Below, in pieces: positions 17,773 through 64,000 of a DNA stretch of 64,000 bases. A program made the position numbers and the translations under genes. Below the pieces are notes generated by a model. That model was not told the origin of the DNA. It ran no database searches and saw nothing but the letters and a program-made list of their open reading frames with translations. This DNA comes from Tetrahymena thermophila SB210 (taxonomy: Eukaryota > Ciliophora > Oligohymenophorea > Hymenostomatida > Tetrahymenidae). The stretch spans positions 1-64,000 of the forward strand of contig NW_002475972.1 of NCBI RefSeq assembly GCF_000189635.1, written 5' to 3'. The stretch's first letter is position 1; every line of letters starts with the position of its first letter.

Positions 17773-17808
<36 letters not shown>

Positions 17809-26752: not shown

Positions 26753-26755
26753 TCA

Positions 26756-27940: not shown

Positions 27941-30900
27941 TCAAAAATTTAAAGACTTCTAATTATCTAACTTGCTTTCAAATTCTAAAGTATTTTACAT
28001 TATGATTTAATTTTCTTGACTTTAAGTATAGTTGTAAGGATTTATTAAATCTAAGTTGCTAGCTGTTTATTCTTTTGATTTGTATAAAAATAAATAAATA
28101 AATAATTAATTTGTATAAATCAAAATAAATTTACGTTATAGATTATTGTAGGTTCTCCTCATTAATTGAGATTAGCAGCTTATTTATTTTAATTAATTGA
28201 AATTATTGTTCCTCATATCTTACTTTATACTAGAAGTCAAAAAATTATAATTTCTCACCTTTTCTAGTTCTTTTCTTTCTGAAGGGATATTCATAAATTA
28301 GCTTTCTATATTAAACTAAACCAACAATTACTCTTCATTATAAATATTGTAGTTTTTTAAGAATTTCAGAAGAAGTCTAAATTTTCTTTAAACTTCTTTT
28401 AACTTAATCAAAGATCTTATTTTTTAGTTACTAATTATTTAAACATTAGTGAATTTTTTAGGATATTTTTATTTTAATTTCAAGAGTAAATTCTAAACTA
28501 AATTATTTTCAGTTTTATTTGCTTTTACTTATATATTTACCATTCCAAATATCAATTATAAGAAGAGATATATGTTTGGTAGTATAATAATTAAAACAGT
28601 GATGACTAAAAAAGCTGTTTATTGTATATATGAAGACGATATCTGTTAAATGTAAAACAGATTCAAAGCTAATATGCAGAGTAAATTTGAAAAATGCTGT
28701 AAATCGTTGTAATTTTATTAAATATAAGGCTTTGATTTTCCTACTAAAAAGATATTTAGCGACATAATAACATTCATTATCAAAACCTATTTTTTAAATT
28801 GTGTAAGCTTTTTTAAAAAAGTAAAATAAAATTTTACTTAAATTGTCTGATTGTTTTCTTTGAGCAAAATAAAAATTATGATTAGTGATGCTTTGTAAAT
28901 GATCTTATAGAACTCCCAATAGTACATTTTATCTCTAAATCCTGCAAATATGTATGAATATTACACTTTAATAAAAAAAGACTTCTTTTTTTTTCTGACA
29001 AGGTACACGCTAACAAATAAAATAATAGGTATGATCATTCCATAGATGATCAACAGAGGTAAACAAAATATAAATATATATGGTAAATGATATTTTGGAT
29101 CATAGCATTTAATATTATAGTCTAAATCCATATACTTTTAATCTCCTATCTAAACACAATTCATGGACTTACTTAGCATAGTAATAATTGAAACAAAATA
29201 ATAAAAGTATATAAAAATTAAAGCAGCTCTGGCATGCCTTATGAATAAATTTTATTTGAACCTTAAAAATATATAGCCTATTATAAAATATGAGGTGATA
29301 ATAAAAATAGGCTGCAATAAAGACCACAGCAATTAATAAAACCACAAAGGTCGTAAACTTGGATTCTTTGCAAATACGCAGTCTATAGATTTACTGATAG
29401 CTCCTAATGGATTACCTGATATTTAAATAGGCACTGAAATAGCCATTAAATTATTAAATAAGCTATAAACCAAAGCAAGAATTTGCAAATGATCATTTAG
29501 AATCTTTGAAAATATTTTTTGTCTATCTGATTTATCTAAAATATAGTTTTAAATTAATATAAATTTATTTTTAAAAATGCTTGATTACATGTGTTGCTTA
29601 AAAAAAGTATCCCTGACTTTTTAACATAATGGCCTAAAAGTTTAATATACAGCTGTTTTTATATGCTTCTTACCATAAAAAAAATATAAGCCATGACTAC
29701 AAAGAATTTTAGAAAGTTATTTAAGAAAATTATCATTGTATTATCTGAGCATTTGTAGCATTATTTTGATGTGATATATTCAGCATACGAATCATCCCAA
29801 ATTTTACCATAAATATCACATGATCCACATATTATACCTATATATCCTCTTGCACAATTGAACTTTTTAATTTAAAATTAAATTAGAAAAAAATAATGAT
29901 TAAAAAATTATTATTTATCTCATTTATCTAATTTAAAATATTAAAAATAGAAAAATTCATCCATGATTCTTTTCTGGGCATTGCGTATTACATCATTCAA
30001 AAAACAAATTATTTAATATGTTATTTAATTTAGTTTTTTTTATAGAAATAATTATTTTTATATTATTCTAAAAAATTTTTTTTTCTTCAAATTTTAATAA
30101 GTTTTTCATTTAAAAAATAAGAAAATATTTTTTTTTTTTTTTTCATAATCTTTAATTTAATTATGCTTATATATAAATTTTATTTTAGTATTACAAAGTG
30201 CTATATGTACAAAAATAATCTTACTTTTGATTAATTGCTTTCAGGTTAACAGACATCGGGATTTTAATTACAATAAATAATCTCATCAGTAAATTCATTA
30301 CTTCTCCAGTAACCATTTTTCAATTAAATTTTTGAACCTTAGCAATATTCAGCAGAGTCTGGACATTTTTTGCACTCGCCATCAAGAATATCTAATGAGT
30401 ATTTTCCCTCTGGACAAGACTCACAAATAATAGAATTACTAAATTATTTTTGAATCTACCCTATTTTACATTGATCAAAGTTAAGTATCACTTAAAGATC
30501 TAATTAGCCTTAATTAGTTTAAATATTATTATTAGAATCAACTAATTGTGGAAACACATTTGATTTTATTTTCATAATCATAGTACTGAGTGGCTTATAC
30601 ATAGGTTATACTGTTAATTAAAACCCTCCATTTTAATAATCGCCGGATTTTAAATTTCCTACACATTATATTTATTATATATTTAATTAATCACATGTAA
30701 TTTCTATATTGATCTATCTAATTATTAGTAAGATATCATCACTTAAGCTATTTTAGTTTTGAATTGATGGAATAAAAACAGGAGTTCCTTCTTCATCAAG
30801 AATCTGTATTTTTGAAAAAATTATTTAATCACCACTTTAAATTCCTTCAACTTCAAGTGAGTTTTATTTGTAATTTATATTATGTGAGCTCTAAATAGAA

Positions 30901-33900
30901 ATATCCTTTTGAGAAATATAAATTATTCTTAAAGTTGAACCTAAATTTTTACCATAGATGTTTGCATAATTATTTTATATAGTATTATTTTGCTTGATAC
31001 CTTTCTATAATAATAATACAAAGTCAGGAACTATTTATTAATAATAAATTCCACCTCCAATTTGAGCTTTATTAGATTCTATTTGGGAATTCTTTAATAT
31101 TAAATTAACTTTGGATAGGTTTATAGCTCCTCCAGTAGATAAAATGGCTTAATTTAGGACAAAAGCAGAAAAGTTAATATCCAAAGTACCCAAATATTAT
31201 GCATTTATAAAATTGATTGCACCTCCATTTTTTTAAAGACATTAGTTAGAAATAAAATGTGAGTAATATATATTAACCTTTTATGTCTCTATTAGTTATA
31301 AAACACCTCCATATCCATTTGAGTTTATATTATCTTAAAATATACATTCAATAAATGTAATATTGTAGCATTAATTAACTTGTATAAATGATGAAAATGT
31401 GTTTTAATTTAATTTGTTAAGCTTAAGAGTTAAATTATCTAATGTAACTTAATCTAAATTATTCAGTAAAATAAGAGAAGCTTCCAAATTAATTTTATTA
31501 TTAATAAAAGACGATTTAAGTAGCTTTGCCTCCCTTTAATATAGTAGTTAGTTATTTTAAAGTTATTACTCATTAACTGATAAGAACGATATAAAGTTAT
31601 CAAAAAATTAAGTATCTTAAATAATGAAACTTGTAATGTTAATAAAGTTTATTGCAAATTAATGTTTGTTATTATTTGATAAAGGTTATATGTTATCCAT
31701 AGACATTTTGTTTATTTATAATACCTGAGCATTTATATCTATAATATTAAGATCTGTAAACACAGAGCTGACAGTAAAATTTTTAACTTAAATTGAATCA
31801 ACTTGTAAAAATATTTAAGTTTAGTTAGAATTAATTATAGTTATGTCTTTTATGAATAAAGACTAACAAATAAATGAAACTGGATTAATTTCTAAGTTTT
31901 ACAAGCTAATCAAACTAAGTGAGTTACTATTTTTAACTTAAATTTCTTATATACTCGTAAAAGATGAAAATAAAGCATTAAAAATTGTAGAAAAATGTAA
32001 TTTAACGATTTAAATATTTGTAATATTAGTGTTTTAGATTAATTAGACATTAAAGAGTTAAATATTCTATGATTAAGTAATATTAAGATCAGAAACTTCC
32101 AAATAATAAGAATTATTTAAGTAAAATATTTGCAAGTTAGAAGAACTAAACACATTAATACTATTGATAGTCATATTTGTATTATTAACAGCACTAAAAA
32201 TGGTTTGAATATTTTGGCTTAAGGTCATAGATTATTTGATATTAATGTTTGAAAGATAAACATTCTTAATTTGAATTTTTGTGTTATTAGTCAGACTGAA
32301 TAAATTATTTGAAATTGTATTTAGGTTGCTTATATTAAGTTTTTCTATAACAACTAATTAGCAATTTTAGATAATTAATTACCCAAAACTTTAGCTTTCT
32401 TGTGCAACTAAATTAATGCTAGTAAGATAGACTTTTTCAAAATTTTACAAAATCAGTGAATTTTATATGTTTAAAGTTATATCTGACATTTAAAATATTT
32501 TCATGATATTATTTTAATTTAGATTTATCAAACCCAAGCTCAATTACATTTATTTTATCTAAAAATTTACAATTTGTTTTGCATAAGGAATATTGTCTTA
32601 CCAACATATATTACTATTTTAAGAAGTTGACTAATTAATCAAAGATAATTATTAACTAACTTAAATTTCGTTAAATAATTAGTGAGATAAAGATCTAATA
32701 CATTATTAATCAAGATATACTATCTCTATCAATTGAAGAGTTGTATCAATATTAAAATTTTATAAATTTGGTAAAATTTAGTAAAGTGTTTCTTATGTAC
32801 GAATGTTCTCTTCAGTTCTATCCTATTGATTTATACTAAGGCTGCATTTATCGTTAGGTGATAAAGGTATTACTATTCTTTCTATATCAGATTAAGAAGA
32901 CAAGATAATAAGCAAACTATATTACCCTTCTTAACTTTTTATGAGTTACAAAACCTAGATTTGATAATATTTCTTATTTTTTTAAAAGAGGACTTTATAA
33001 TCAGAGTTATATTATAATTATATTAAGTAAATTTATTCTTTTTATACTATTATGAAATAATTATTAAAATTGACACTAATCATATTTATTGCTTCTTGTA
33101 TACCATAATTTATTACAGGAAATTATTATTAAAAGCTCAAACCATTATAGATTATTATATCTGTTGGGCACACAGAATATATGAAATTAGAGTCAAAAGT
33201 TATTATTGCTTGCTTCAAGCATGGATTTAATAAAGAACTTATAAAATTCAAATTCCAATCGTAAATATTTGTTATACCTTTATTTAAGACAGCATATAGA
33301 ATTTTTCTAAAAGGATCATTTACAATATTTGTAATTGTAGTTTTTTGAAGTAATAATTGTTAAAATAAATTTGTACTCACATTTAAAATTTAGATAATAG
33401 TGTTTTAAGAATCTGATGAAATGATACACACTAAAGAAGTACTTTAGTTAGATTCAATATAATCATTAGTATTATATCTGTCTTCATATTCAAAAGGGAT
33501 TTTCCACCAATTACTTTAATAATTCTTTATATCTTTAGATTAAAGCTTAAACATGAACTAAAATACACTGGTATTTTAAATATTAATATCATTTATTTTT
33601 TTTGTTAAAATATTGAAGGTATAAATTATATTGACAGAAGGAAGAACTATAAAATCACCAATTATTAAAGCTTAAGAGAAGTCACTCTATGGAAGACTAG
33701 AAAAATTAACTTCATTAATTTGGTCAACTTGTAGGTTTAATTAATTTAATTATAAATTTTGCTAGTATAAAATGAGAATTTACAACCTAGGTTTATCATA
33801 AAAATAGTTGTCTGGATTTTAAGATAATTGTATCTTTTAAATTAATTACAGTTTTTCATTTAATAAATCTACTTCGATTAAATAAAGGTTATCAAACAGT

Positions 33901-36900
33901 ATATAAATAATTTATTTTGTGCTTATTTGTATTAACTCAGTAAAGTATGGATGAATATTGTACTAATCTTGTTGTAATATTAAATAATCTACTAACACTG
34001 CTTATTTAAACAAGTTAATAGAATAATTTGCTAAACTATAATAAACTTAATATTAATCGTTGAATACTATGTTTTATACGTTTTAGTATTATGCTAAATT
34101 AGTTTCAGAAGAATAGAGAACTTCAGCCAAATCAAAAGAAATCAGTGCAGTTAAAGTCAGTACATTTAATAAATTAAATTAAGTGTTTAGATATATATTC
34201 TATATAGGAGTTTATTCTTATTATTGCAGGGAAAAACTTTCAATAAATTACATTTGAGGATATTAATACATGTGAATAAACTTATCTGAGTATAAAAAAA
34301 TGATTTTTTTATTCTCATCCATTATGATTCCTTTTGTTTGATATACATAAATTTAAAAAAGAGTCACTTCGTTTGTTAAACAATTGCATAAATAAATTAT
34401 TGGAGTATTATCAATAACAATTAAGCTTTTATATTTTTAAAAATAGTATGCTGAGTGATTATCAAATTAGCTAGTAGTTTTATATAAAAAAAAGGTACTA
34501 TTAGTAAAAACTTTGATAATAAAGATCTGTTTTTTTGATCCTGTGAGGAGAATGTAAATGTCTTTATCTAAATCATAGATAGATTATGTCAATTGATATT
34601 AACAAATATCCTTGTAGTTTATGAGTTAGTCATCATCTTTTTTAATTACATGTAATTAATTTTCCAAGGTATACAAAGCAAAAATTTTATTTATCACATT
34701 TATTATTGGATTAGAACATAAATCCACACCGTAATAATTAGATAATAACTATTTAATAAATAATTAAGTTAAAAATTTAATATATTATATTTTAATAGGT
34801 ATATTATATTTGCTTATTTTTAAATTCTATTAAGAAATTTGAAATTATTGAATTTATGAAAAAATATTTACTTAATTTGTTAACAGTTCTCCGCTTGTAT
34901 AATCAAAGATTTAAAAACAAGGTTTGCTCAAAATTATTAATTTTTCATTACAATCTAAATCAAATATAACCTAACTCATATCTAAAAAAGACAAACATTA
35001 TAATGAATTCAAGTTTATTTAAATTTAGCTATTATCTAACATCTATGAATAAAATAAATAAAAGTTAATTAATAAATAGAGTTGTATAAAAATCTTACGT
35101 TTATAGAGTAGATGATATTTTAACTGGTTTATGTAACTATAATATTTTGCTACTAACATACTCTATACTAAATTATCTTAGAATCTAAAGTACATATTTG
35201 TTTATTTTGTGTATTTGAAAAAGTAGAAAATAAATACAGTGAATTATTTGTTACATAAATAAATTGTAGAGAAATCCAATCTAAAATGTAAACGTTAATG
35301 TCTGACTCAAGCAAGAAATTCATACTGATAACTTTAAAAACATCTGTAGAATTGTAAATAGTAATTTAATTGGTGCTCTTATCATGAATTGCAATCCAGT
35401 TTTAACCATTATCAAATTATTATGCGAGAAATATCTGGCTCTAAGGATTTAAATTTAAAATACGGTAAGGATTATTAAACAAATTTGTATGCCAATAGAA
35501 GTCATTTTATGATTAGAAGAAGTGAATTTAAGAATCACCATATTTTTCTTACCCAATAAATATATTATCTTCTTATTATGTTTTAATTATTATCATATTT
35601 TAACTATCTATGATATTTTCTGATTTCTTGTAGTATTGTGTATCATCTAAATGATAATAATTTATTATTTAATCAACTGGTTACATGCTTATAGATGTAC
35701 TTGTTGTTGTTAAATTAAATAATTGTTTTGTAAGGAGATCAAATTTATAAAAAAAGTCAAATTCACAAAAGTATATTTATTTATCATCAGAGAAAAAATT
35801 TGTTATGAAGAATCCAGATAGAATTTTACCAAGATATTATAGGTCAAATGTGTAAGCTGAAATATTATTAAATCCAATAACAAATATCTCTTTAGTTATT
35901 TATGAAGTCAAATAGAAGCTTTAGTAAAATTTACCTACTAGATTAGCTAACTAGTATTCAAGTGTTCTCTTGCTTATTGAAAATGGCTAAAATAAATAAT
36001 CATATGTCTGTAAATAAATAAGATCTCCGTCAAAAATTGCTGGCAGTTTTTTATCGTTATCAATAAACATAAAATCTATAAAATTTTAAGAAGGAGAAAA
36101 GCTAAAAATCTAATTTAAACTAGCTGAAACTAAATCAAACTAATAAAGTGATTAATCCTAATAGCTGAGAATCACTAAAAAACTATCATTTACTACAATA
36201 AAATTGCCCTATATGTTGGTCAAATTAGCAAATATTCTTTAGTTAGCTAAATCTACTAATAAGAGTATATCTTAAATTATCAAAATTTTTTTGGATTAGA
36301 TGTAACATGCATTAGACCTGAAAGAAAAGCTACTTATATTATAATTTAAAATAACCTTTTTATTTGAAATATCAGTAATATACTCTTATAAAGCTCCAGC
36401 AGACGAAAATGATGTTATTAAATACTAATTATCGAATACACGATTAATTATTTATTGATTGCCTTATACTTAAAGAGATTATTAAATTGTTGTTAAAATT
36501 CTTGGATTTTTTTAGAGATAATTTAGTTAATAGATTATATTTTATTTACTTATAAGAATCTACTAAAGGAAATAATTATCATTTATAGTGTAAAATTAGG
36601 GTTTTTAAGTTGATTAATTTACATTCAAAATTAATTAATTCATAGACATAATCTTATATGAAAACTATACTTAGCTCATTATTTGTTTGTAAAACTAAAT
36701 ATTTTAGCTTAAAGATTAATATGGATTAAGAAATTCAAATACCAAATCATTTTTAATTAAATTGTATTTAATTCGTATGCAATTATTGTAAAGTCCAAAG
36801 TTTTAAGCATATTTAATGTATTTGCTTATTATAATCTATATTTCATCTTACTATAGCATAAATCCAATTACTTAGTATTGTAAGAATTTCTTGTTTATTT

Positions 36901-38433
36901 ATTAAAAATTTACTTTGATTTTTGTTTAAGTTTTTTAGTATTAATAGAAAGTGTCAGTTAAATTTGCAAAAACATAAGAATTCTAATTTTCAAGTAAAAT
37001 AAAATAGCTGTTTAAAATTTAATTATTACTTGCTGTCATTAAAAAAAAATTATCAGTAGAGATTTCTTAATTTATTAAAACTCCATCGTAAGTGTCATTA
37101 AATTATATTAATAGTAAATATTGTTTATTTTAATCATATTACACTATCAAATTAAGAGATTAATATGAAAATATGAAGTTAGGAAAATATTCTATCTATA
37201 AAACGAGAATCTAGTCAATGAGTTCTCCATCTTCCTGAAATGTTAATTTGTAGAACAAATTTGAATTACTAAAATATACTGATGTTGAAGATATAATATA
37301 ATTATATTTTTGCAACAATATATTATCAGGAATATCACTGAAACATTTTTTTGACTGTATAAGTGATATAGAAAAGTCCTATTGAAATGTCCCTATCTAA
37401 TATGAATTAAAAAATAATTAAATTTAATTTATTAATAAGTATATTAAATAATTACAAATAACATATTAACATCTTTAGACTGAATATAATATCTCTTTAA
37501 TATTTTTAATAGAATAAAATGGTTGATTGATAGTTAGATAGAATTTATTTTTTTCCTTTCTATGTCATACCAAATTAAAGCAGACGCTTAACTATCTGTC
37601 ATGAAAACGAGCTTATAAAAATCATCTACATATTTAATTTTATGCTATTATTCTAAATTTTTTTCATCGAATTCTACTTGCAGAGTCTCAAAATTCATAA
37701 CATTAAACCTTTATCCCTGAAGATATCCGCCATAAACTCCTGATAAAAAATACTATATTTAGGTCTCATCTTATCTATTAAAGAATCCAAATGTGTTTAT
37801 TTCTTGTAAAGTTTATTTAGTTATTATATTCCAGTTTTTATCCACAACAGCGAAGCTACAAGCCGCCACACTTACAGCAATGTATTGATTCTCTTTAAAG
37901 ATTGCAATATCATTCACAAAAGTATTCATAACAGAGCTAGATAATTACTGAATTTATGGGCATTACTAAGTAAATTCACAAATTTAGCTACTGTAATTCT
38001 ATTAATAAGATTATTGACAGGTATTCGTACATTTTCTACTTTCGAAAGGTGGATTAAGAAATTATAAATCAGATTCGCAAATCCCTTTTTTAGCATTGCA
38101 CTAATTTTTATTTTTATCAAGCACTAAATTCTCATCGCAGACCAGACAAATTTATTATGATGTGCACTAAATGCATCCATAGACCTTGCATTTAATGCAT
38201 CTATTGCCTTCGCTATCAATAACTTCATTTTTTTGACATTAATTTTAACAAGTAGAAACATCATCATAACTCATGTAAGAGTTTTTTACGCAGCCAATGC
38301 ATGATTATTGGCTTAAATTAAAGCAATTTTCACAATCTAGTGAACAACTAAGACAAGCTTTTTATAGAGCATCAAATATTTAAGATTTTTGACATGTTTG
38401 AGCTAAGCAATATTATATGAATATTAAATTCAT
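27941..38433 (-). CDS. Giant multidomain membrane protein, copy A
   Basis: With TAA/TAG as Gln the start at 38433 gives a signal peptide (MNLIFIQYCLAQTCQ), then a furin/growth-factor-receptor-like Cys-rich region to about 37960 (CSLDCENCF, CIGCVKNSY, CIKCKVYGCIQC). A long extracellular region follows (about 37950-33000) with propeller-like hydrophobic repeats, for example YVFANL, KKLPAIFDGDLIYLQTYDY and KIIFLYSDKFIHMYQYPQ. From about 33000 to 30700 short repeats such as DLNITQSQNIQLFNVQ and SIQVKNFTVSSVF resemble a parallel beta-helix. Next comes a Cys-rich module (about 30420-30240, CPEGKYSLDILDGECKKC) and, after an intron, GYIGIICGSCDIYG. Several membrane helices lie at about 29720-28480, including PYIFIFCLPLLIIYGMIIP and the motif GFRDKMYYWEFYKIIYK. 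The Gln/Lys-rich tail ends KSLNF-TGA at 27941. Introns seen near 37400-37460, 35048-35098, 34759-34873 and 29880-30230. Probably a surface receptor-like protein of about 3,000 residues; ligand unknown. Confidence 0.75.
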
Positions 38434-38786
38434 TATAATTTTTTTTCCTTTATGTGATATCATAATTTACATCCTTTATTAGTTAAACAAATTTGATAAA
38501 TGCATTCAAAAATTATTTACAATTATTATTCTTTCTTATCAAGTAATTCTTATATATCTTAAGCAAAACAAAAATAATATTTGTGGCCATCTCTTAATTT
38601 AAAAATTAAATGATTGAAAAAGTATAAAATTCCTACTATATATAAAACAAAATTATGGTTTTTGTTATTTCTACTTTAAAAATATTAATATTTTATTTAA
38701 AATTAATAATAATTTTTTGGTTCAAGTAAATGTATTTTCTAGCTTATAAAACAAAAAAATGAAAAGAATGTAAAGCATAGCATTAA

Positions 38787-39000
38787 TAATTTAGAAATTT
38801 CTTAGAAAATAATCTTTCCAAAATATTTCATTCAATTTATTAATCTGATATTTTTAACAAAATAAAAATTAGATTGAAAACTATAAAAGAACTTATATTA
38901 AAAAATATGAGATTCAAAATACCATACATTAATTTATATTATTTACCTTAATTTTAATAATAAATATTTTAAATAAATTTACTGTAAAATCTCCCTAATT
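38787..39000 (-). promoter_or_regulatory. Candidate conserved upstream blocks of copy A
   Basis: Two blocks, about 355-420 and 535-570 bp before the start codon, recur at nearly the same distance before copies B (50076-50135, 50248-50280) and C (61747-61810, 61928-61960). Conserved position suggests a shared promoter or upstream control region. Recent duplication of the spacer alone could also explain it. Confidence 0.35.
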
Positions 39001-39213
39001 AAGTGAAAGTAATAATTACTTAGAAAAATTCTTAAAAAATGAGTTAATGAAAATAGGCAAAAACTTAATAAAATTTAAAAGATTGTATTCACAATATTTA
39101 AATACAATATATAATATAAAAATTAATTAAATCAATATAATTTTAAGACTTGTAGCTAAACTAATTTTTTTTAGATTTTTAAAAACATTTATATTCATTT
39201 AAAATAACATATT

Positions 39214-39252
39214 CTGGTATTGAAATATCCAACAGTGAGAATTCAATACCAG
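39214..39252. repeat. 11-bp perfect inverted repeat (hairpin)
   Basis: CTGGTATTGAA (39214-39224) and TTCAATACCAG (39242-39252) can pair perfectly around a 17-base loop. It lies about 70 bp beyond the stop of copy B and has no counterpart in the other spacers. Its function is unknown. Confidence 0.7.
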
Positions 39253-39322
39253 GAACAGTTATATAAAGGTAGATAATTAGAAAATTTATGTAATATTTAA
39301 TTAAAAAACAGAAATAAATACA

Positions 39323-49732: not shown

Positions 49733-50757
49733 TATAAATTTTTTTACAAAATGTGATCTCATAATTAAATTAATTTGATAAGTAAATTCAAAATTCTTTT
49801 GCGATTAATTATTCTTGCTAATTAAAAAGTGAATAACTTAAACAAAATCAAAATAATCATTGTGGTGATCTCATAATATTAAAAAATAAATTTGAACTCT
49901 TATGATTTAAAAAGAAAAAAAAATCCTTCTATTTTAAAACTAAATAAAAAAGTTTTGTATTATTTCAACTGAATAGGGAATTAATACTTCCTTTAAAATA
50001 AATAATTAAAGCAAATAATTTTTTAGTTTATTGCTAATAAAAAAGAAGAAAGATCATAAAGCTCAACCTTAGTAATTTAGAAATTTCTTTTAAAAAGATT
50101 TGTTCCAAAATATTTCATTCAATATATTAATCTGAAATTTGTAACAAATATTTTAAATTTACATGAAAATTAAATAATAATTTTTATTAATAATTATGAG
50201 AATTAAAGAACATGTTTAAATAGATTATTTATCCTGTTTTTATTAAACCTTTTAAATAAATTTACCTTAAAACCTCACTTGAAATGTGCAAAGTAAACAC
50301 ATTACTTTTATTTTCTTTAATAATGAGAAAACCTCGACAATTACAATATAAAAATAAATAATAATTTTATTAAATATATTATTATGTAAAAAGAGAATAA
50401 TTAATTTACATATAATGATAAGCTTTTTTTTTTGGTGATTTCTAAATAAAATTTGTTTTGTATATAATTAAATTTGTTACTGTAAAACCTTTAGCCTCCT
50501 TCTTCCAAGTTCACAAAAAAAGAGAAGCTATGAGAAAAATGTAAACTAAAGAAATAAATTTCAATTACATAAAAAATTTTTTCTCATAAATAGGAAAAAT
50601 TATGTTTTTTATTTTAAAATGTACAACTAAAATATAATAAAATTTAGTAGTATTTAATTATGTCTAAAATATACATATTTTAAAAAATATAATGATATAT
50701 AATTAAAAAATATAAATGAATATCAAAATAATTAATATTTAATTCACAATTTATACA
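49733..50757. other. Spacer between copies B and C
   Basis: Homologous to the A/B spacer in its B-upstream half, with the conserved blocks at about 50076-50135 and 50248-50280. The rest is A/T-rich and copy-specific. No exon recognised. Confidence 0.55.
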
Positions 50758-53700
50758 TCAATAATTTAAAGATTTATATTTATCTAATTTGCTTTCAAAC
50801 TCTAAAGTTTTTTAAAGTATATTTTAATTTTCTTGATTTTAAGCATAGCTTTAAGGTGTTATTAAATCTATATTGCTAAACATTTATTCTTTTGATTAGG
50901 ATATAATTAATTAAATAATTTGAAAAAAAAGAAAATAAATTTACATTATGGATTATTATTAGTTTTCCCTACTTATTCAGATTAGCAGCTTATTTATTTT
51001 AAATAATTTAAATTATTGTTCACCTCTTCTTATTTTATGCTAGATGTCAAAAAATTCAAATTAGAATTTCTCAATTTTTCTAACTCTTTTCTCTCTGATG
51101 GGATATTTATAAATTAACTTTCTAGATTAAACTACACCAATAGTTACTCTTCATTGTAAAAATTGTAGTTTTTTAAAAATTTGAGAAGAATTCTAAATTT
51201 CCTTTAAACTTCTTTCAACTTAAGTAAAGATCTTATTTTTTAGTTGCTAATTATTTAAACATTAGTGAATTTTTTAGGGTATTTTTATTTTAATTTCAAG
51301 AGTAAATTCTAAACTAAATTATTATCAGCTTTATTTGCATTTACTTATATATTTATCATTCCAAATATCAATTGTAAGAAGAGATATATGTTTGGCAATA
51401 TAATAATTAAAACAGTGATTATTAAAAAAACTGTTTATTGAATTTATTAAGATGATATCTGCTAAATATAAAAGAAATTCAGAGCCAATATGCAAATCAA
51501 ATTAGAAAAATGCTGTAAATCATTGTAATTTTATTAAATATAGGGCTTTGCTTTTCCAACTAAAAAGATATTAAGCGACATTATAATGTTCATCAAAACC
51601 TTTATTCAAAAATAGTTTAAGCTTTTTTTAAAAGTGAAATTAAAATTTACTTAAATTAACTGATTATTTTCTTTGAGCAAAATAAAAATTATGATTAGTG
51701 ATGCTTTGTAGATGATCTTATAGAACTCCCAATAGTACATTTTATCTCTAAATCCTGCAAAAATGTATGAATATTATACTTTAATAAAAAAAGATTTCTT
51801 TCCTTTTCTTACAAGATACACACTAACAAATAAAATAATAGGTATAATCATTCCATAGATGATCAATAGAGGTAAGCAAAATATAAATATATAAGGTAAA
51901 TGATATTTTGGATCATAGCATTTGATATTATAGTCTAAATCCATATACTTTTAATCTCCTATCTAAACACAGTTCATAGACTTACTTAAAATAGTAATAA
52001 TTGAAACAAAATAATAAAAGTAAATAAAAATTAAAGCAGCTCTGGCATGCCTTATAAATAAATTTTATTTGAACTTTAAAAAAATATAGCCTATTAAAAA
52101 ATATAAGGTGATAATTAAAATAGGTTGCAATAAAGACCAAAGCAATTAATAGAACCACAAAGGTTGTAAATTAGGTTTCGTTGTATATAGGCAGTCTATA
52201 GATTTACTGATAGCACCTAATGGATTACCTGTTATTTAAACAGGTACTGAAATTGCCATAAAATTATTAAATAAGCTATAAACCAATGAAAGAATTTGCA
52301 AATGATCATTTAGAATCTTAGAAAATATTTTTTGTCTTTCTGATTTATCTAAAATATAATTTTAAATTAATTTAAATTTATTTAAAAAAATGATTAATTA
52401 CATGTGTTGCTTAAAAAAAGTATCCCTGACTTTTTAACATAATGGCCTAAAAGTTTAATATACAATTACTTTTATAAGCTTCTGACCATAAAAAAAATAT
52501 AAGCAATGACTACAAAGAATTTCAGGAAATTATTTAAAAAAATTAGCATAATATTATCTGAGCATTTGTAGCATTATTTTGATGTAATATATTCTGCATA
52601 AGAATCATCCCAAATTTAACCATAAATATCACAAGATCCACATATTATACCTATATATCCTCTTTCACAATTAAACTTTTTATGATAAAATTAAATTTTA
52701 ATAAACAAATGATTATGAAGTATTATTTATCTTATTTATATAATTTAAAATAATTAAAAAAAGATAATTTATTCATAATTATTTTGTAATGCTAAGTGTG
52801 GGCGCGCCATAGCACCAAAAAGCAGATATTAAAAAAAAAAAAAATTATTTATGATATCCTCTAAGTTGGTTTTATATTGTATAAAGGGTTTTTTCTACCC
52901 ACTTTTCAACATTATTGTAAATTAAATATGTTTTTAATTTTTATTTTTTTTCTTTTTGAAAATAAAAAAATTTTTTTTAGTTGATCAATAAATATTTTTT
53001 TCTAATAATTGTAATTTGAATCAAAAAAGGTACGTTTTGCTCTATTAAAATGATTGAAAAAGTCTCATTTTTTAATGTGTTATTTCTTATATAAAATAAA
53101 TAGCCATTTAGATTAAGACGCGCAGTCTTCAAGAATCGTATTTTAATCGTGGGCTCAGAAATATTTATCACAAATTGTTTCAAATTTGAAAAAAATTAAT
53201 AATCTTACCTTTGATTGATTGCTTTGAGGCTAACAAACATTAGGATTATAATTACAATAAATAATATCATCTGTAAATTCATTACTTCTCCAGTAACCGT
53301 TTTTCAACTAAATCTTTGAACCTGAACAATACACAGCAGAGTCTGGACACTTTTTGCACTCACCATCAAGAATATCTAATGAGTATTTTCCCTCTGGACA
53401 AGACTCACAAATAATAGAATTACTAAATTATTTTTGAATTTACCCTATCCTACATTAATCAAAATTAAGTAAAACTTAAAGATCTAACTAACCTTAATTA
53501 ATTTAGATATTATTATTAGAATCAACTAATTGTGGAAACACATTTGATCTTATTTTCATACTCATAGTACTGAGTGGCTTATACATAGGCTATACTGTTA
53601 AATAAAAACCTCCATTTTAATAATCGCTTGATTTTAAATTTCCTACACATTGTACTTCAATATTTAATTAATCACATGTAATTTCTATATTGATCTATCT

Positions 53701-56700
53701 AATTATTAGTAAGACATCGTCACTTAAGCTACTTTGATTTTGAATTGATGGAATATAAACAGGAGTTCCTTCTTCATCAAGGACCTATATTTTTTAATAA
53801 GTAATTTACTCACCACTTTAAATTCCATCTACTTCAAGTGAGTATTATTTGTAATTTATATTATGTGAGCTTTAAATAGTAATATCTTTTTGAGAAATGT
53901 AAATTTTCCTTAAAGTTGATCCTAAATTTTTACCATAGATGTTGGCATAATTATTTTAAATAGTATTATTTTGCTTAATACCTTTCTATAATATTATTAC
54001 AAAGTCAGGAACTATTTATTGATAATAAATTCCACCTCCTATTTGAGCTTTATTGGATTCTATTTGGGAATTCTTTAATATTAAATTAACTTTGGATAGG
54101 TTTATAGCTCCTCCAGTAGATAGCACGGCTTAATTCATAACAAAAGCAGAAAAGTTAATATCCAAAGTACCCAAATATTTTGTGTTTATAAAATTGATTG
54201 CACCTCCATTTTTTTAAAGGCATTTGTTAGAAATAAAATGTGAGTAATATATATTAGCCTTTTATGTCTCTATTAGTTATAAAGCACCTCCATATCCATC
54301 TGAGTTTATATTATCTTAAAATATACATTCAGTTAATATAATATTGTAGCATTAATTAACTTGTATAAATGATGATAATGTGTTTTAATTTAATTTATTA
54401 AGCTTAAGAGTTATATTATCTAATGTAACTTAATCTAAATTATTCAGTAAAATTAGAGAAGCTTCCAAATTAATTTTATTATTAATAAAAGATGATTTAA
54501 TCAGCTTAGCCTCTCGTTAATATAGTTCCTAGTTATTTTAAAGCTACTATTCATTAACTAATAAGAAAGATATAAAGTTATCAAAAAATTAATTATTTTA
54601 AATAGTGAAGTTTGTAATGTTAATAAAATTTATTGCAAATTAATTTTTTTTATTATTTGATAAAGGTTATATATTATTCATAGACATTTTGTTTATTTAT
54701 AATACTTGAGCAGTCAAATCTAAGATATTAAAATCTGTAAAAACTGTACTGACAGTTAAATTTTTAACTTAAATTGAATCAACTTGTAAAAATATTTAAG
54801 TTTAGTTAGAATTAATAATAGATACGTCTTTTAGGAATAAACTCTAACAAATAAATTAAACTTAATTAATTTCTAAGTTTTACAAGTTGATAAAACTAAG
54901 TGAATTACTATTTTTAATTTCTATTTCTTATAAACTGGTATGAGAAGAAAATAATGCATTAAAGATTGTAGAAAACTGTAATTTAACTATTTAAACATTT
55001 GTGATATTAGTGTTTTAGATTATTTAGGCATTAAAGAGTTAAATATCCTATGACTAAGTGATATTTAGATCAGAAACATCCAAATAATATGAATTGTTTA
55101 AGTAAAATATTTACAAGTTAGAACAGCTAATGACATTAATATTATTGATAGTTAAATTTGTATTATTAACCGCGCTAAAAACAGTTTGAAGGTTTTGATT
55201 TAATTTCATAGATTATTTAATATTAATGTTAGAAAGATAAACATTCTTAATTTGAATTATAGTGTTATTAATCAAATTGAATAAAGTATTTTAAAGTGTA
55301 CTTAAGTTGGTTATATTAAGTTTTTCTATAACAACTAATTAGCAATTTTAGATAATTAATTGCCCAAAACTTTAGCTTTCTTGTGCAACTAAATGTATGC
55401 TAGTAAGATAAACTTTTTCAAAATTTTACAAAATCAGAGAATTTTATATGTTTAAAGTTATATCTGACATTTAAAATATTTTCATGAAATTATTTTAATT
55501 TATATTTATTAAACCCAAACTCAATGACATTTATTTTATCTAAAAATTTACAATTTATTTTGCATAAGGAATGTTATCTTACCAACAAATATTACTATTT
55601 TAAGAAGTTGACTAATTAATCAAAGATAATTATTAACTAACCTAAATTTCGTTAAATAATTATTGAGATAGTGATCTAATACATTATTGATCAACATAAA
55701 CAATTTCTATCACTTGAAGAGTTGTATCAATATTAAAATTTTATAAATTTGAGAGAGTTTCGAAAAGTGTTTCTTATGTACGAATATTCTCTTCAGTTCG
55801 ATTCTATTGCTCTATACTAAGATTACATTTATCGTTAGGTGATAAAGGTATTACTATTCTTTCTATATCAGACTATGACGACAAGATAATAAGCAAGCTA
55901 TATTACCCTTCTTAACTTTTTATGAGTTACAAAACCTAGATTTGATAATATTTCTTATTTTTTTAAAAGAGTAGTTTATAATCAGAGTTATATTACAATT
56001 ATATTAAGTAAATTTATTCTTTTTAGATTATTATGAAGTAATTATTAAAATTGATACTAATCATATTTATTGCTTCATGTATACCATAATTTATAACAGG
56101 AAATTATTATTAAAAGCTCAAACCATTATAGATTATTATATCTGTTGGGCACACAGAATATATGAAATTAGAGTCAAAAGTTATTATCGCTTGCTTTAAG
56201 CATGGATTTAACATAGAACTTATAAAATTCAAATTCCAATCGTAAATATTTGTTGTACCTTTATTTGAGACAGTATATATTATTTTCCTAAAAGGATCAT
56301 TCACAGTATTTGTAATTGCAGTTTTTTGAAGTAATAATTGTTAAAATAAATTTGTATTCACATTTAAAATTAAGATAATAGTATTTTAAGAATCTGTTGA
56401 AACGATACACACTTAAGAAGTAATTGAGCTTGATTCAATATAATCATTAGTATTATATCTATCTTCATATTCAAAAGGGATCTTCCACCAATTATTTTGA
56501 TAATTCTTTATATCTTTAGATTAAAGCTTAAACATGAACTAAAATACACTAGTATTTTAAAGATTAATATCATTTATTTTTTTAGTTAAAATATTGAAGG
56601 TATAAATTATATTGACAGAAGGAAGAACTATAAAATCACCAATTATTAAGGCTTAAGAGAAGTCACTCTATGGAAGACTAAAAAAATTAACTTCATTAAT

Positions 56701-59700
56701 TTGGTCAGCTTAAAGGTTTAATTAGTTTAATTACAAATTTTGCTAGTATAAAATGAGAATTTGCTACCTAGGTTTATCATAAAAATAGTTGTCTGGATTT
56801 TAAGATAATTGTATCTTTTAAATTAATTACAATTTTTCTTTTATTAAATCTACTTCGATTAAATGAAGGTTATCAAACAGTATATAAATAATTTATTTTG
56901 TGCTTATTTGTATTAATTCAGTAAAATAGGGATGAATATTGTATTAATCTTGCAATAACATTAAATAATCTACTAGCACAGATTATTTAAACAAGTTAAT
57001 AGAATAATTTGCTAAACTATAATAAACTTAATATTAATCGTTGAATACTATGTTTTATATGTTTTGGTACTAAGCTAAATTAGTTTCAGAAGAATAGAGA
57101 ACTTCAGTCAAATCAAAAGAAATCAGTGCAGTTTAAGTCAATACATTTAACAAATTAAACTAAGCATTTAAGTATATATTTTAAATAGGTGTTTCTTATT
57201 GCTATTACAAGGAAAAACTTTCTATAAAAGTCATTTCAGGATATTAATACATGTGAATAAACTTATCTGAATATAAAAAAATGATGTTTTTTATCTCATC
57301 CATTATGATTCCTTTTGTTTGATATACTTAAATTTAAAAAAGAGTCACATTTTTTGTTAAAAAATCGCATAAATAAATTATTGGAGTATTATCAATAACT
57401 ATAACGCTTTTTTATTTTTAAAAATAGTATCCCAAGTGATTATCAAATTGGCTAGCAGTTTTATATAAAAAGAATGTGCTATTAGCAAAAACGTCGATAA
57501 TGATAATCTATTTTTTTGATCCAGTGAGGATAATGTAAATATCATTATCTATATTATAATAAGATTATGTTAATTGGTATTAACAAATATCCTTGTAACT
57601 TATTAGTTATTCTAAATCTTTTTTAATTACATTTATTGACAATTCTAAGGAATAAATAGCAAACACTTAATTTTTCACTTTTATTATTGGATTACAACAT
57701 AAGTCCACACCATAATAACTAGACAATATCTATTTAATAAATAATTAAGTTCTAAATTTAGCAAATAAAATGAAATATATTTAACTATATTTTTATGGCT
57801 TTATTATATTTGTTTATTTTTAAATGCTATTAAGAAATTTAAGAAAAAATACTTACTTATTATGGATATAATTATCCGCTTGTATAATCAAAGATTTAGA
57901 AACAAGGTTTGCTCAAAATTATTAATTTTTCATTACAATCTAAATCAAATAATACCTAACTCAAATCTAAATAAGATTGACAATATAAAGAATTCAAGTT
58001 TATTTAAATTTAACTAAAATCTAACATCTATTATAAAATAAATAAAAGTTAATTAAGAATTAGAATTTGATTAAAAATTTTACGTTTATAGAGTAAATGA
58101 TATTTTAGCTTGTTAATGTAACTATAATATTTTGCTACTAGCATACTCTATACTAAATTATCTTAGAATCTAAAATACATATTTGCTTAACTTAAGTATT
58201 TGAAAAAGCAGCAAATAAATACAGCGAATTATTTTTTACATAAATGAATTGTGGTTAAATCCAATTTAAAACGTAAATGCTAATGTCTGATTATAGCAAA
58301 AAATTTATATCGATAATTTTAAAAATGTCTGTTGAATTGTAAATAGTAATTTAATTAGAGCTCTTATCATAAACTGCAATCCAGTTTTAACCATCATCAA
58401 ATTCTTATGCTAGAAATATCTAATTCTAAGAATTTAAATTTAAAATACGGTAAGGATTATTAAATAAATTTATATGCCAATAGAAGTCATTCTATGATTA
58501 GAAGAAGTGAATTTGAGAATCACCCTATTGAGTTTACCCAATATATATGTTATCTTCTTGTTATGTTTTAATTATTATCATATTTTAACTATCTATGATA
58601 TTTTCTGATTTCTTGTAGTATTTTGTTTCATCTAAACGATAATAATTAATTATTTATTCAACTGGTTACGCGTTTATAGATGTACTTGTTGTTGTTAAAT
58701 TAAATAATTGTTTTGTAAGGAGATCAAATTTATAAAAAAAATCAAATTCACAAAAGTATATTTATTTATCATCATAGAAATAATTTGTTATGAAGAATCC
58801 AGATAGAATTTTACCAAGATATTATAGGTCAAATGAGTAAGCTGAAATATTATTAAATTCAATTTTAAATATCTCTTTAGTTATTTATGAAGTCAAAAAA
58901 AAGTTTGTCTAAATCTTACCTAGATTTACTAACTAGTATTCAAGTGTTCTCTTGCTTATTGAAAATGGCTAAAATAAATAATCAGCTGTCCGTAAATAAA
59001 TAAGATCTCCATCAAAAATTGCAGGGAGTCTTTTATTTTTGTCAATAAACATAAATTCTACAAAATTTTAAGTTGAAGAAAAAGTAAAAATCTAATTTAA
59101 ACTAGCTGAAACTAAATCAAACTAATAAAGTGACTAATCCAGATAGTTGAGAATCACTAAAAAACTATCTTGTACAACTATAAAAGTGCCCTATATGTTA
59201 GTTAAATTAGCAAGTATTCTTTGGTTAGATAAATCTACTAATAAGAATATTTCTTGTATTATCAAAATTTTTTTGGATTAAATGTAACATACATTAGACT
59301 TTGAAATAAAGCCAATTAAATTATAGTTTAATATAAGCTTTTTATTAAAAATATCAGTAATATACTCATTGACAACTCCGAACTGAACTGAAAATGATGT
59401 TATTAAATATTAATTATCAAATACACGATTAATTATTTGTAGATTGCCCTACACTTAAAGAGATTATTAAATCGTTGTTAAAATTCTTGGGTTTTTTTAG
59501 AGGTTATTTAGTTAGTAAATTATATTTTACTTGCTAATAAGAACTTACTATTAGAAATAATTATTATTTATAGTATAAAATTAGGGTTTTTATGTTACTT
59601 AATTTACATTCAAAATTAGTTAATTTATAGATATAATATTAAATGAATACTACATTTAATCCATTACTTCTCTGTAAAGCTAAATATTTTAGTTTAAAGA

Positions 59701-61410
59701 TTAATATGGATTAAGAATTTAGAAAAAGGAATCATTTTTAATTAAATTGTATTTAATCCGTAAACAATTATTGTAAATTCCAAAGTATTAAGCATATTGA
59801 ATGTATTTTCTTATTATAATCTATATCTCATCTTACTATATCATAAAACTAATTACTTAATATTATAGGAATGTCTTGTTTATTTATTTAAAATTTACAC
59901 TGATTTTTGTTTATGTATTTTAGTACTAATAGAGAGCGTCAGTTAAATTTGCAAATAGATAAGAATTCTAGTTTTCAAGTAAAATGAAATAGCTATTTAA
60001 AATTTGATTATTTGTTACTGTAATATAAAGAAGAGTATCCTGAAAGATTACCTAATTTATCAATACTCCATCATAAGTGTCATTAAATTATATTAATAGT
60101 AATTGTTGTCTATTATAATCATATTACACTACCAAATTAAAAGATTAGTATGAAAATATGTTAGTAGGAAAATATTCTATTTCTAAAATGAGGATTTAGT
60201 CTATGAGCTCTCCATCTTACTGAAATGTTAATTTGTAGAACCAATTTTAAATATCAAATGTTGAAGATATAATATAATTTTATTTTTGCAACAATATATA
60301 ATCAGGAATAGGACTGAAGCATTATTTTGACTATATAAGTGATATAGAAAAGTCCTATTGAAGTGTTCCTACCTAAAAAGAATTAAAAAAATAATTAAAT
60401 TGAATTTATTTATAAGTAAATTTAATAATTACAAATAGTTAATTAACTTCTTTAGACTGAATATAATATCTGCTAAATATTTTTAATTAAATACTGTATC
60501 TGCTTTATAGTTAAACACGATTAATTTTTTTATTTTATATATCATACCATATTAAAGCTTATGCTTAACTATCTATCATGAAAACAAGCTTATTAACATG
60601 ATCTATATAACTAATACCATGTTATGATTCCAAATTTTATTCATCGAATTCTATTTGTAGAGTCTCAAAATTCATAACATTAAACCTTTATCCCTAAAGA
60701 CATCCGCCATAAACTCCTGATAAAAAATATTATATTTAAGTCTCATCTTATCTTTGAAAGAATCCAAATGTGTTTATCTCTTGTAAAGTTTATTTTGTTA
60801 TTATATTCCAGTTTTGATCCACTATAGCGAAGCTGCAAGAGCCGCCACTTATAGTAATGTATTGATTCTCTTTAAATATCCCAATGCCATTCACATACCT
60901 ATTAATAACAGAGCTAGATAATTGCTGAATTTATGGGCATTCCTAAGTGTATTCACAAATTTAGCTACTGTAATTCAAATAATAAGATTATTGACAGGTA
61001 TTCATACATTTTCTACTTTCGAAAGGTGGATTAAGTAATTATAAATCAGATTCGCAAATCCCTTTTTTAGCATTACACTGATTATTGTTTTTATCAAGCA
61101 CTAAATTTTCATCACAAACCAGACAAATTTATTAAGAGGTGCACTAGACGCATCCACTGACTTTACATTTAATGCATCTTATGCCTTCGCTGTCAATAAC
61201 TTCATTTTTTTGGCAAAAATTTTAACAAGTAGAAATATCATCATAACTCATGTAAGAATTATTTACACAACCAATGCATGAGTTTTGGCTTATATTAAAG
61301 CAATTTTAGCAATTTGGTGAGCAGCTAAGACATGCTTGTGATAGAGTGTCAAATATTTAAGATATTTAACACGTTTGAGCTAAGCAATATTATAAGAATA
61401 TTAAATTCAT
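50758..61410 (-). CDS. Giant multidomain membrane protein, copy C
   Basis: Same architecture as A and B. The start at 61410 gives a hydrophobic signal peptide (MNLIFL-like), then the Cys-rich repeats, propeller-like and beta-helix-like exons, Cys-rich module (about 53400-53230), membrane helices (about 52560-51400), and a tail ending KYKSLNY-TGA at 50758. In the N-terminal region many variants match A rather than B (compare 37155-37200 with 60150-60190), while in the membrane region C matches B. Its intron at about 52680-53205 is the longest of the set and combines an A-like part with a B-like part. Intactness was checked only in sampled segments. Confidence 0.72.
52790..53200. other. GC-raised inserts in copy C intron
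   Basis: The intron holds an islet GTGGGCGCGCCATAGCACC (about 52799-52816) not seen in A or B, then a T-rich stretch, and from about 53010 a segment related to B 41310-41500 with AAGACGCGCAGTCTT, which can form a small hairpin. It has an incidental open frame on the minus strand (53183-52977), but the relative in copy B does not keep a comparable frame, so I do not call a gene. Confidence 0.55.
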
Positions 61411-62306
61411 TATAATTTGTATTCCTTTATGCGATTTCATAATTTAATTCCCTTAGTTAATCTAATTTGATAAGTATATTCAAAAATTATTTGCTATTTG
61501 TAATTATTTTTAAGCAAATAGTCCAAATCTTAAACAAAATCAAAATAATCTTTGCAATTATCTTTTAATATAAAAACTTGAAATTATATGATTGAGAAAT
61601 TGTAAAAATCATAGTATTTTAAAACAAAATTATAGTTTTGTGTTATTTCAACTTAACAAAATAAAAAACTATATTTAAAATTTATAAAAATATTTGCTTC
61701 AAGTATTACACTTAAAAATGAAGAAAAAATAAAAAGCATATTTTATTAATTTAGACATTTCTGAGAAAAACTATCTTTCAAAAATATTTCATTCAATTTA
61801 TAAATCTGAGATTTTTAGCAAACAAAAATTAAAAATTCATATGAAAATTATAAAATAAATTTTATTAATATTATGTGATTCAAAATATCATACATCAATT
61901 TACACTATTCACCTATTTTTATTAGATTTTTGCCAAATAAATTTACTGTAAAATCTCCTTTTGAAATGTATAAGCCAAAAATAAGTGTTAGAATTCTTTT
62001 TAAAAATTAAGCAAAAAGAGTTTTATAACTAAAAATTTTTACTCTGTCTAATTTTAAAAATAATAGGTATATCTGTAAGATAAATCTTAATTTAAAAAAG
62101 AAAAAAATTCATGTAGATTACCATATAATTATTTTTTATATAAATAATTTAAAACCTAAAACAGCTAATAAATTATAGTTAAAATGAAATCATTTTTTAC
62201 AATATTTTTATGTTTAAAAATAGATATTTTCAAAAATTTAATATTTTAAAATTAAAAAACAAAAATAAATATGAAAATATTTTACATTTAAATCATAATT
62301 AAACGT
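61411..62306. other. Spacer between copies C and D
   Basis: Carries the conserved upstream blocks at about 61747-61810 and 61928-61960. The remainder is A/T-rich and unrecognised. Confidence 0.55.
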
Positions 62307-64000
62307 TCAAAAATAGAAAAATATCTTTTTATCTAACTTTCTTTCAATTTCTAAAGCATTTCCTTAATCTACTAACAGTATATTTTAATTTTCTTGAGTT
62401 TACTGATTTTAAGCATATTATTAAATTGATGTTGAATCTAAATTAGTAGTTGTTAATTCTTTTGATTATTTTAAAAATGAATAAATAATTTGAAAAAAAA
62501 AAAATTTACATTATAGATTAGTGTAAGTTTTCCTCGTTTATTCAGTTTAGTTATTTACTTATTTTTAATAATTTAAATTATTGTTCTTCTCTTCTTATTT
62601 TATGTTTGATGTCAAATAATTCCAATTAGAATTTCTCTAATTTTCTATTCCTTTTCTCTCTGAAGGGATATTTATAAATTAACTTTCTAGATTAAATTAC
62701 ACCAACAACTACTCTTCGTTGTAAAAATTGTAATTTTTTAAGAATTTGAGAAGAATTTTAAATTTTCTTTAAACTGATTTTAGTTTAATCAAGGATCTTA
62801 TTTTTGATTTATTAATTATTTAAACATTAGTAAATATACTAGGATATTTTTATTTTAATTTTAAAAGAAAATTCTAAAATAAATTGTTATCTTTTTTATT
62901 TGCATTTATCAACACATCTACCATTCCAAATATCAATTATAAGAAGAGATATAAGTTTAATAGTATTATTATTGAAGCAATAATTGCTTAAAAAACTATA
63001 TATTGGGTTTATTAAAATTATATCTGCTAAATATAGAATAAATTCAAAGCCAATATGCAAAGCATAGTAGATAACTGCTATAAATCATTGTAAATTTATT
63101 AAATATAAGGCTTTGATTTTCCAACTAAAAAGATATTAAGCGACATTATTATGTTCATTGTTAAAACCTTTATTCAAAAATATAATAAATATTTATTAAA
63201 TCGAAATTAATATTTACTTAAATAAACTAATAATTTTCTTTGAGCAAAATAAAAGTTATTATTAGGGTTGTTTTGTAGATGATCTTATAGAACTCCCAAT
63301 AATACATTTTATCTCTAAATCCTGCAAATATGTATGAATATTATACTTTAATAAAATAAGACTTCTTTTTTTTTCTGACGAGATATACGCTAACAAATAA
63401 AATAATAGGTATGATCATTCCATAAATGATCAACAGAGGTAAGCAAAATATAAATATATATGGTAAATGATATTTTGGATCATAGCATTTGATATTATAG
63501 TCCAAATCCATATACTTTTAATCTCCTATATAAACACAGTTCATAGATTTACTTAGCATAGTTATAATTGAAACAAAATAATAAAAGTAAATAAAAATTA
63601 AAGCAGCTCTGGCATGCCTTATGAATAAATTTTATTTGAACCTTAAAAAAATATAGCCTATTATAAAATATGAGATTATAATTATAATAGGTTGCAATAA
63701 AGACCAAAGCAATTAATAGAACCACAAAGGTCGTAAACTAGAGTTCTATGCAAATAAGCAATCTATAGATTTACTGATAGCTCCTAATGGATTACCAGAT
63801 ATTTAAACAGGTACTGAAATAGCCATAAAATTGTTAAATAAGCTATATATCAAAGAAAGAATTTGCAAATGATCATTTAGAATCTTAGAAAATATTTTTG
63901 GTCTTTCTGATTTATCTAAAAATATATTTTAAATAAATTTTAAATTATAAAAAAATGCTTGATTAATTACATGTATTGCCTAAAAAAAGTATCCCTGACT
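62307..64000 (-). CDS. Giant multidomain membrane protein, copy D (3' part only)
   Basis: Only the C-terminal membrane region and tail lie in the window; the 5' part continues beyond 64000. The tail ends FFYF-TGA at 62307, slightly longer and more diverged than in A-C (extra residues around QQTQENQNILLVDQG). The membrane region at 63250-63900 matches the GFRD...YYWEF exon of the other copies. It shares several variants with copy A (for example GACTTCTTTTTTTTTCTGAC at about 63360 against 28980, and GAACCTTAAAAA near 63639) instead of with its neighbour C. Confidence 0.75.

Follow-up and report, generated by a model that had tools for sequence, protein, structure and literature searches.

Here we describe an array of giant genes, predicted to encode receptor-like membrane proteins, on contig C419 of Tetrahymena thermophila SB210 (NW_002475972.1; 193,871 bases). 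The window, that is, the whole stretch of DNA analysed, comprises the first 64 kb of this contig (positions 1 to 64,000); beyond it, the contig letters were examined to 164 kb together with the last 400 bases, and a search with a tail query spanned the entire contig. In keeping with this species, a telomerase exon from the genome matched the T. thermophila telomerase chains 2r4g, 5c9h and 6d6v of the PDB at 101 of 102 aligned residues, the first being the exception.

A head-to-tail array of six intact predicted genes

Long open frames emerged in the window once TAA and TAG were read as glutamine. Self-BLAST of the window placed units with a spacing of about 11.4 kb on the minus strand, head to tail, at about 27.8-39.0, 39.3-50.3, 50.6-62.0 and 62.2-64.0 kb, in agreement with a prior sequence-only reading of this DNA, which had proposed three complete units and one partial unit on one strand. 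Following that reading's proposal to continue the count past position 64000, a search of the organism's own genome and the continuation of the contig showed that the fourth copy, U4, runs on and is complete, and added U5 (about 73.5-85 kb of C419) and U6 (97.7-109.5 kb), for a total of six copies found on C419 (U1-U6), all head to tail. The tail query, covering all of C419, detected no seventh copy. U5 and U6 are separated by a 13.2-kb interruption with a 2,040-N gap, around which long reads could change the copy number. An orphan piece of 353 bases, similar to the 5' flank of a unit (76% identity), lies just downstream of the U6 stop (C419:97169-97521), perhaps the remains of a seventh copy. 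The spacers from U1 to U5 are short, 827-995 bp, and the stretch from -1 to -50 is alike before each copy (81% mean identity); more than 50 bases downstream of the copies, similarity is about that of shuffled sequence.

An ab initio gene finder fused adjacent copies and mis-called or dropped the 3' (membrane) exons; we instead used a single model, curated on U3 and projected through the six-copy alignment to the other copies. The copies within the window are as follows.

27941..38463, minus strand: copy U1, exons 38463-37456, 37396-35099, 35042-34872, 34748-30225, 29862-29589, 29535-28838, 28786-28135 and 28071-27941; 3,251 codons before TGA (exon projection)
39323..49762, minus strand: copy U2, exons 49762-48755, 48694-46397, 46340-46170, 46039-41519, 41236-40963, 40909-40215, 40163-39509 and 39453-39323; 3,250 codons (exon projection)
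50758..61440, minus strand: copy U3, hand-curated reference model, exons 61440-60433, 60372-58084, 58027-57857, 57729-53209, 52675-52402, 52348-51651, 51599-50945 and 50888-50758; 3,248 codons
62307..64000, minus strand: copy U4, 3' part, comprising exons 6-8 and the end of exon 5; by projection, the whole gene reaches C419:72751

In the projected model, each of the six copies comprises eight exons, all 42 introns are bounded by GT..AG, and every coding sequence is a multiple of three that ends in TGA and holds no internal TGA. The coding sequences span 3,246-3,258 codons, or 3,246-3,253 residues counted from the first ATG; the earlier figure of about 3,000 residues was thus of the right order and slightly low. 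In U4, ATC occupies the common start position, at which the other five copies carry ATG, and the first in-frame ATG, five codons later, gives 3,253 residues. Intron 4, at the boundary between ectodomain and membrane region, measures 247-1,276 bases, and the remaining six introns 49-144. Mean identity among copies is 83-92% in exons and 77-88% in introns, with 67% in intron 4. Without composition correction, tblastn returned many weak matches across C419, which were set aside as low-complexity.

Across 10,717 gapless columns, the six copies share 83.4-88.9% pairwise identity, with synonymous divergence (dS) of 0.25-0.41 and a ratio of nonsynonymous to synonymous divergence (dN/dS) of 0.26-0.34 over all 15 pairs. 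All six predicted genes are under purifying selection. Given these values and six open frames out of six, the copies are neither assembly duplicates nor pseudogenes, the two outcomes that the sequence-only reading had named as capable of overturning it. Mean dN/dS for exons 1 to 8 was 0.33, 0.39, 0.61, 0.24, 0.17, 0.19, 0.29 and 0.94, respectively, with none above 1. Exons 1-3, on the head side, evolve about twice as fast in dN (mean 0.123-0.162) as exons 4-6, which include the helix and the first membrane exons (0.045-0.072), and the 44-residue C-terminal tail encoded by exon 8 is nearly unconstrained. The suggestion that the proteins are variable draws slight support from the faster head, but mean dN/dS does not exceed 0.61 in exons 1-7, approaches 1 only in the short tail, and no copy is broken.

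Lastly, U1 and U2 share a run of 42 polymorphic sites, compared with a maximum of 28 in 500 permutations (p about 0.002); the same test gave p about 0.002 for U3-U4 and about 0.004 for U2-U3, with the remaining 12 of 15 pairs at 0.02 or above. These runs hint at gene conversion between copies, although uneven conservation could give the same signal.

Organization of the predicted proteins

The following parts were recognized in U3, from the N-terminus to the C-terminus.

60946..61440, minus strand: N-terminus, with a signal-peptide-like stretch and a 'furin-like' region rich in cysteine (22 among residues 1-200)
58084..60372, minus strand: head exon 2, 763 residues; 47 matches in the genome
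54028..54291, minus strand: beta-helix-like part, with four GGA[IL]/GGGI rungs at residues 2303, 2331, 2362 and 2387, 25-31 apart
53338..53460, minus strand: juxtamembrane cysteine-rich stalk, TNFR/ephrin-receptor/NCD3G-like (Pfam E-values 0.0012/0.0036/0.004, below curated cut-offs)
50945..52675, minus strand: multi-pass membrane region, exons 5-7, followed by the variable exon 8 tail (50888-50758)
51651..52348, minus strand: membrane core, exon 6, about 231 residues, with the motif FAG[FYL]xxxx[YF]WEF, here GFRDKMYYWEF

By eye, all six copies begin with a hydrophobic stretch that resembles a signal peptide. The tip that follows is rich in cysteine, as had been noted from the sequence, and 63 of 76 cysteine columns are invariant across the six copies; the furin-like label itself drew weak support from Pfam, in which Furin-like_2 stayed below threshold in all three window copies (E 2-7.1). 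Beyond the tip extend some 1,500 residues with no recognized domain, encoded by exons 2 and 3 and the 5' half of exon 4. The head exon gave no convincing Pfam match in 15 rows, the best being NOMO_3rd (E 0.019), with XET_C below threshold in one row (E 0.088), and the head profile A4 matched no PDB sequence at E<=10.

The sequence-only reading had also placed propeller-like and beta-helix-like parts in the ectodomain, and these fared differently. For the propeller, the single trace was a sub-threshold match to the gluconolactonase family SGL, which we take to be a propeller family, over 28 residues of U3 only among the three copies (E 0.18); PDB sequences, AlphaFold and an hhalign self-comparison for internal repeats as a sign of blades yielded nothing. 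This is a lack of evidence, not evidence for another fold, and the folding drew on window rows only. For the beta-helix, the four rungs are present in U3 and resemble Chlamydia-PMP repeats; Pfam support was weak, Chlam_PMP appearing below threshold in two paralogues, L023 (E 0.019) and L015 (E 0.11), and not in the window copy scanned. Adjacent to the membrane, the stalk drew sub-threshold Pfam matches to TNFR_ELAPOR1, ephrin-receptor and NCD3G models, and the single match of predicted protein P0001 among PDB sequences (E 0.83) was an ephrin-receptor chain over the stalk. U3 carries 37 N-glycosylation sequons, the last of which, at residue 2660, precedes the first membrane peak.

Hydropathy averaged over the six copies resolved seven hydrophobic peaks in the membrane region at a strict cut-off and nine once it was relaxed; these peaks and a 28-row core alignment corroborate the multi-pass region with a GFRDKMYYWEF-type motif first seen in the sequence. 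The strict cut-off also catches one stretch in the head, and the loose cut-off six stretches before residue 2690. The head stretch, 19 hydrophobic residues at U3 residue 1516 (about position 56650 of the window), lies in the putative ectodomain and is shared by five or more of the six copies. When the core rows were scanned singly, four Pfam families appeared at E<=1, the best being LptF_LptG in one of 28 rows (E 0.011). The core profile A1 found no PDB chain at E<=10, predicted protein P0003 had no match among PDB sequences, and an NCBIfam scan of three proteins returned nothing relevant.

A genome-wide family built on the membrane core

To place the array in the genome, we searched all 101.0 Mb in 445 contigs. 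With P0003 as query, for which 72 of 414 candidates were scored, 73 rows resolved into at least 67 loci, 40 of 67 lying in 12 same-strand clusters. With a paralogue core as query, at least 150 loci on 74 contigs were found at E<=1.9e-10; this number is a lower bound, since 150 of 423 candidates were scored. Among these 150 loci, 86 fall into 28 same-strand clusters with a median spacing of 11.55 kb, and each of the 58 pairs of neighbours less than 20 kb apart shares a strand, where simple random placement expects about four pairs. The local expansion of giant multi-pass proteins that had been read from the window holds, as one array within a family of genome-wide extent. As a control, the reversed core returned no candidates and no matches from the genome. 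Of 14 hand-picked, mostly distant matches, all scored 58-188 bits against A1, and their reversals at most 4.4 bits; WEF is present in 11, and among the other three, L087 stops before the place of the motif and L084 holds a TGA.

The core alignment comprises 28 rows, six of them from C419, and 231 residues, with 41 invariant columns. In a tree of these rows, the six cores from C419 group together as a single clade (100/98), which is adjoined by C297 (100/99). Between arrays, head identity to U3 is 29-37% (12 loci) and core identity 43-57% (22 rows outside C419). The 47 genome matches to the head exon fall largely on the same contigs as those to the helix-stalk part (89 rows, 56 scored of 379 candidates); on this basis, the full architecture is probably common to some 45-50 genes and the core to many more. 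A scan of prokaryote genomes with A1 gave 94 pattern-matching stretches, the patterns having been built on two peptides, and none of these encodes a relative.

The assembly breaks in such arrays and probably understates their copy numbers: several contigs begin or end within or close to family members, and C31, C132, C95, C76 and C89 have members at or near their ends. Tetrahymena telomeres consist of GGGGTT repeats, in which the genome is rich and which, on the one contig inspected for them, C4, begin at base 3; no telomere was present at the ends named above where the 300-base stretches were readable. Across 20 contig-end stretches of 300-400 bases, we noted a short CCCCAA run at the start of C297 and a single CCCCAA at the end of C164, the starts of C95, C89, C18, C189 and C23 being uninformative, with N at both shown ends; we make no claim of subtelomeric placement. 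Automatic public gene models for the array genes very likely exist. Our searches of the open-licence literature brought up no account of this family, of its arrays or of its core; large cysteine-rich multi-pass surface proteins of alveolates are known as a kind, and the membrane core is uncatalogued.

Elsewhere in the window, a 445-residue frame at 10229-11566 (plus strand) contains a protein kinase domain (Pkinase, E 4.9e-20) and is unrelated to the array. The direct repeats that make up a T-rich block at 16608-19891 have diverged to 71-82% identity, and a gap of 100 N interrupts the block at 17587-17686; the one frame of this block that was scanned had no Pfam family at E<=0.1. A GC-rich unit of 21 bases is repeated 3.4 times at 7920-7991 within AT-rich sequence. 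At 26755-26826 (minus strand) lies a tRNA gene with anticodon TTA, called tRNA-Stop by ARAGORN, which fits the ciliate reading of TAA as glutamine.

Interpretation and comparison with known systems

We favour the view, to which we assign a probability of roughly 55%, that one lineage of a very large family has expanded locally to give the array, and that the family consists of giant cell-surface receptors or adhesins, namely multi-pass contact or ligand receptors with the N-terminus outside. Such a protein of about 3,250 residues would present a cysteine-rich tip and a head of about 1,500 residues on a beta-helix-like stem and a TNFR/ephrin-like cysteine stalk, and would be anchored by a conserved domain that carries the WEF motif and spans the membrane with seven to nine helices. 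Head and tip might bind something on another cell, on a food particle or in the medium; stem and stalk could relay the contact to the membrane core; and core and tail might signal or gather partners. Neighbouring copies would have arisen by tandem duplication, followed by divergence mostly in head and tail. This view is supported by six intact copies with one exon structure and constrained dN/dS, the hydrophobic N-terminal stretch, the conserved cysteines, sequons confined to the part before the membrane region, the faster head and tail, and the clustering of the family.

Several observations weigh against it. AlphaFold produced no confident model, either for 1,200 residues of exon 4 (three window-only rows, mean pLDDT, the predicted local distance difference test score, of 31.0) or for 434 residues of the membrane region (seven window-only rows, mean pLDDT 38.4). 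The Pfam matches of the array proteins are all sub-threshold and include non-receptor families: the SGL match already mentioned, RNase_T behind the membrane core of P0003, at residues 412-530 (E 0.015), and PTEN2_C2 in P0004 (E 0.04). No signalling domain exceeded the Pfam cut-off in P0001-P0005, and the hydrophobic stretch at head residue 1516, caught at the strict cut-off, makes the topology uncertain.

The best surviving alternative, which we nonetheless judge unlikely, is that these proteins modify surface glycans or build a coat, with a pectin-lyase-like beta-helix that binds or cuts carbohydrate and a membrane region that is a mere anchor. The PMP-like rungs and the sub-threshold Chlam_PMP, SGL and XET_C matches are compatible with such a role, as is the role in carbohydrate chain modification that the authors of PMC10901506 suggest for MRC2, a component of the T. 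thermophila mating-type recognition complex. However, no enzyme family rose above the Pfam cut-off, and the core is among the best-conserved parts of the protein (dN/dS 0.19 in exon 6 and 41 invariant columns over 28 rows), beyond what an anchor needs.

Less probable again is a system of variable surface antigens, comparable to the immobilization antigens (i-antigens) of ciliates, with a single copy of an array expressed at any one time. Tandem near-copies with a faster-evolving head, short spacers and a similar upstream stretch before each copy would suit this model; against it stand the intactness of all six copies and their low dN/dS, and the i-antigens of Ichthyophthirius are described as repeat proteins anchored by glycosylphosphatidylinositol (GPI), a group of 12 measuring 303-340 residues (PMC3341644), unlike a multi-pass design.

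We give marginally less weight still to the idea that the proteins serve as structural parts or sensors of an internal or exocytic organelle, for instance at mucocyst docking sites, and are not general surface receptors. The model here is the CRMPs of Tetrahymena, EGFR-domain multi-pass proteins required for mucocyst release, whose homologues in Toxoplasma have been proposed as host-contact sensors (PMC9670195); yet five transmembrane helices are predicted for the Tetrahymena CRMPs in that account, as against seven to nine peaks here, and at least 150 loci seem excessive for an exocytic complex. Finally, that the array consists of assembly duplicates of one locus or of mostly decayed copies is very improbable, and is refuted for the six C419 copies by their divergence and open frames, notwithstanding the gap between U5 and U6 and the contigs that begin or end in family members.

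If the receptor reading is true, giant receptor-like genes form a very large family in a standard laboratory ciliate, a family whose membrane domain is matched convincingly by no Pfam-A model and no solved-structure sequence in our searches. The interest of the array lies in its scale and order. Surface recognition by unicellular predators and mates would then become testable, because arrays can be deleted as blocks, copies tagged singly and species compared, and the member list, motif and exon model suffice for a family profile. As a conjecture that we hold only lightly, the core might mark out a superfamily, so far undescribed, of giant contact receptors with multiple membrane passes, comprising at least 150 loci and more than 1% of the somatic genome if lengths match the spacing. 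It might form the main repertoire by which the cell tells self, mates, prey and surfaces apart, with MRC2 as a member with a tested role and the arrays as a source of new specificities by head divergence.

Among known systems, the class C G-protein-coupled receptors (GPCRs), with their nine-cysteine domain, resemble the array proteins in the juxtamembrane cysteine pattern, as do TNFR_ELAPOR1 and ephrin-receptor modules, all through matches below cut-off (the NCD3G E-values being 0.004 for U3 and 0.00077 for L015). The 28 core rows matched no GPCR or seven-transmembrane model at E<=1, and the NCD3G resemblance should not be taken to indicate a class C GPCR because a published survey of GPCRs in ciliates reports none from family C (PMC9960496). 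Nor are these small GPI-anchored cysteine-repeat antigens, as the array proteins are giant, with a multi-pass region and a tail behind. Seven domain classes are enriched among the species-specific genes of Tetrahymena, which show more tandem duplication; one of them, the GFR cysteine-rich class, is likewise cysteine-rich and expanding. That class is defined by its domain, and neither the architecture seen here nor its arrays figure in its description in PMC6564038.

The mating-type genes MTA and MTB lie in a germline array (PMC3608545), and they and MRC1 share with our genes, as described, a cysteine-rich furin-like/GFR region, a multi-pass C-terminus, a large extracellular specific part and tandem germline organization. 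MTA and MTB are described with five transmembrane helices, MTA with 1,423-1,494 residues, and as head-to-head pairs completed by programmed DNA rearrangement (PMC3608545, PMC10901506), whereas the array holds complete genes in the assembly, head to tail, with seven to nine peaks and about 3,250 residues. Together with the strand agreement of all 58 close neighbour pairs across the family, this sets the array apart from MTA/MTB-type genes.

Like the CRMPs, compared by description only, the array proteins are cysteine-rich and multi-pass. The CRMPs of Toxoplasma and Plasmodium are given nine predicted transmembrane helices, with Kringle and MAR domains in the apicomplexan proteins and a GAIN domain in those of Tetrahymena (PMC9670195); our Pfam scan of the array proteins found none of the three, a result that holds for Pfam alone and implies nothing for an HHpred search. 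The closest described design, by analogy, is that of MRC2, which is reported to have eight transmembrane helices and a pectin-lyase fold (PMC10901506), the array proteins having seven or nine peaks according to cut-off. Both, compared again by their descriptions, are large multi-pass membrane proteins of the same organism, with a pectin-lyase-fold part in MRC2 and a putative beta-helix-like part here; they differ in size, the components of the recognition complex being 92-212 kDa, and in the head and tip, which do not figure in the description of MRC2 in that source. These parallels with MRC2 and the CRMPs speak for the plausibility, not the identity, of a receptor role.

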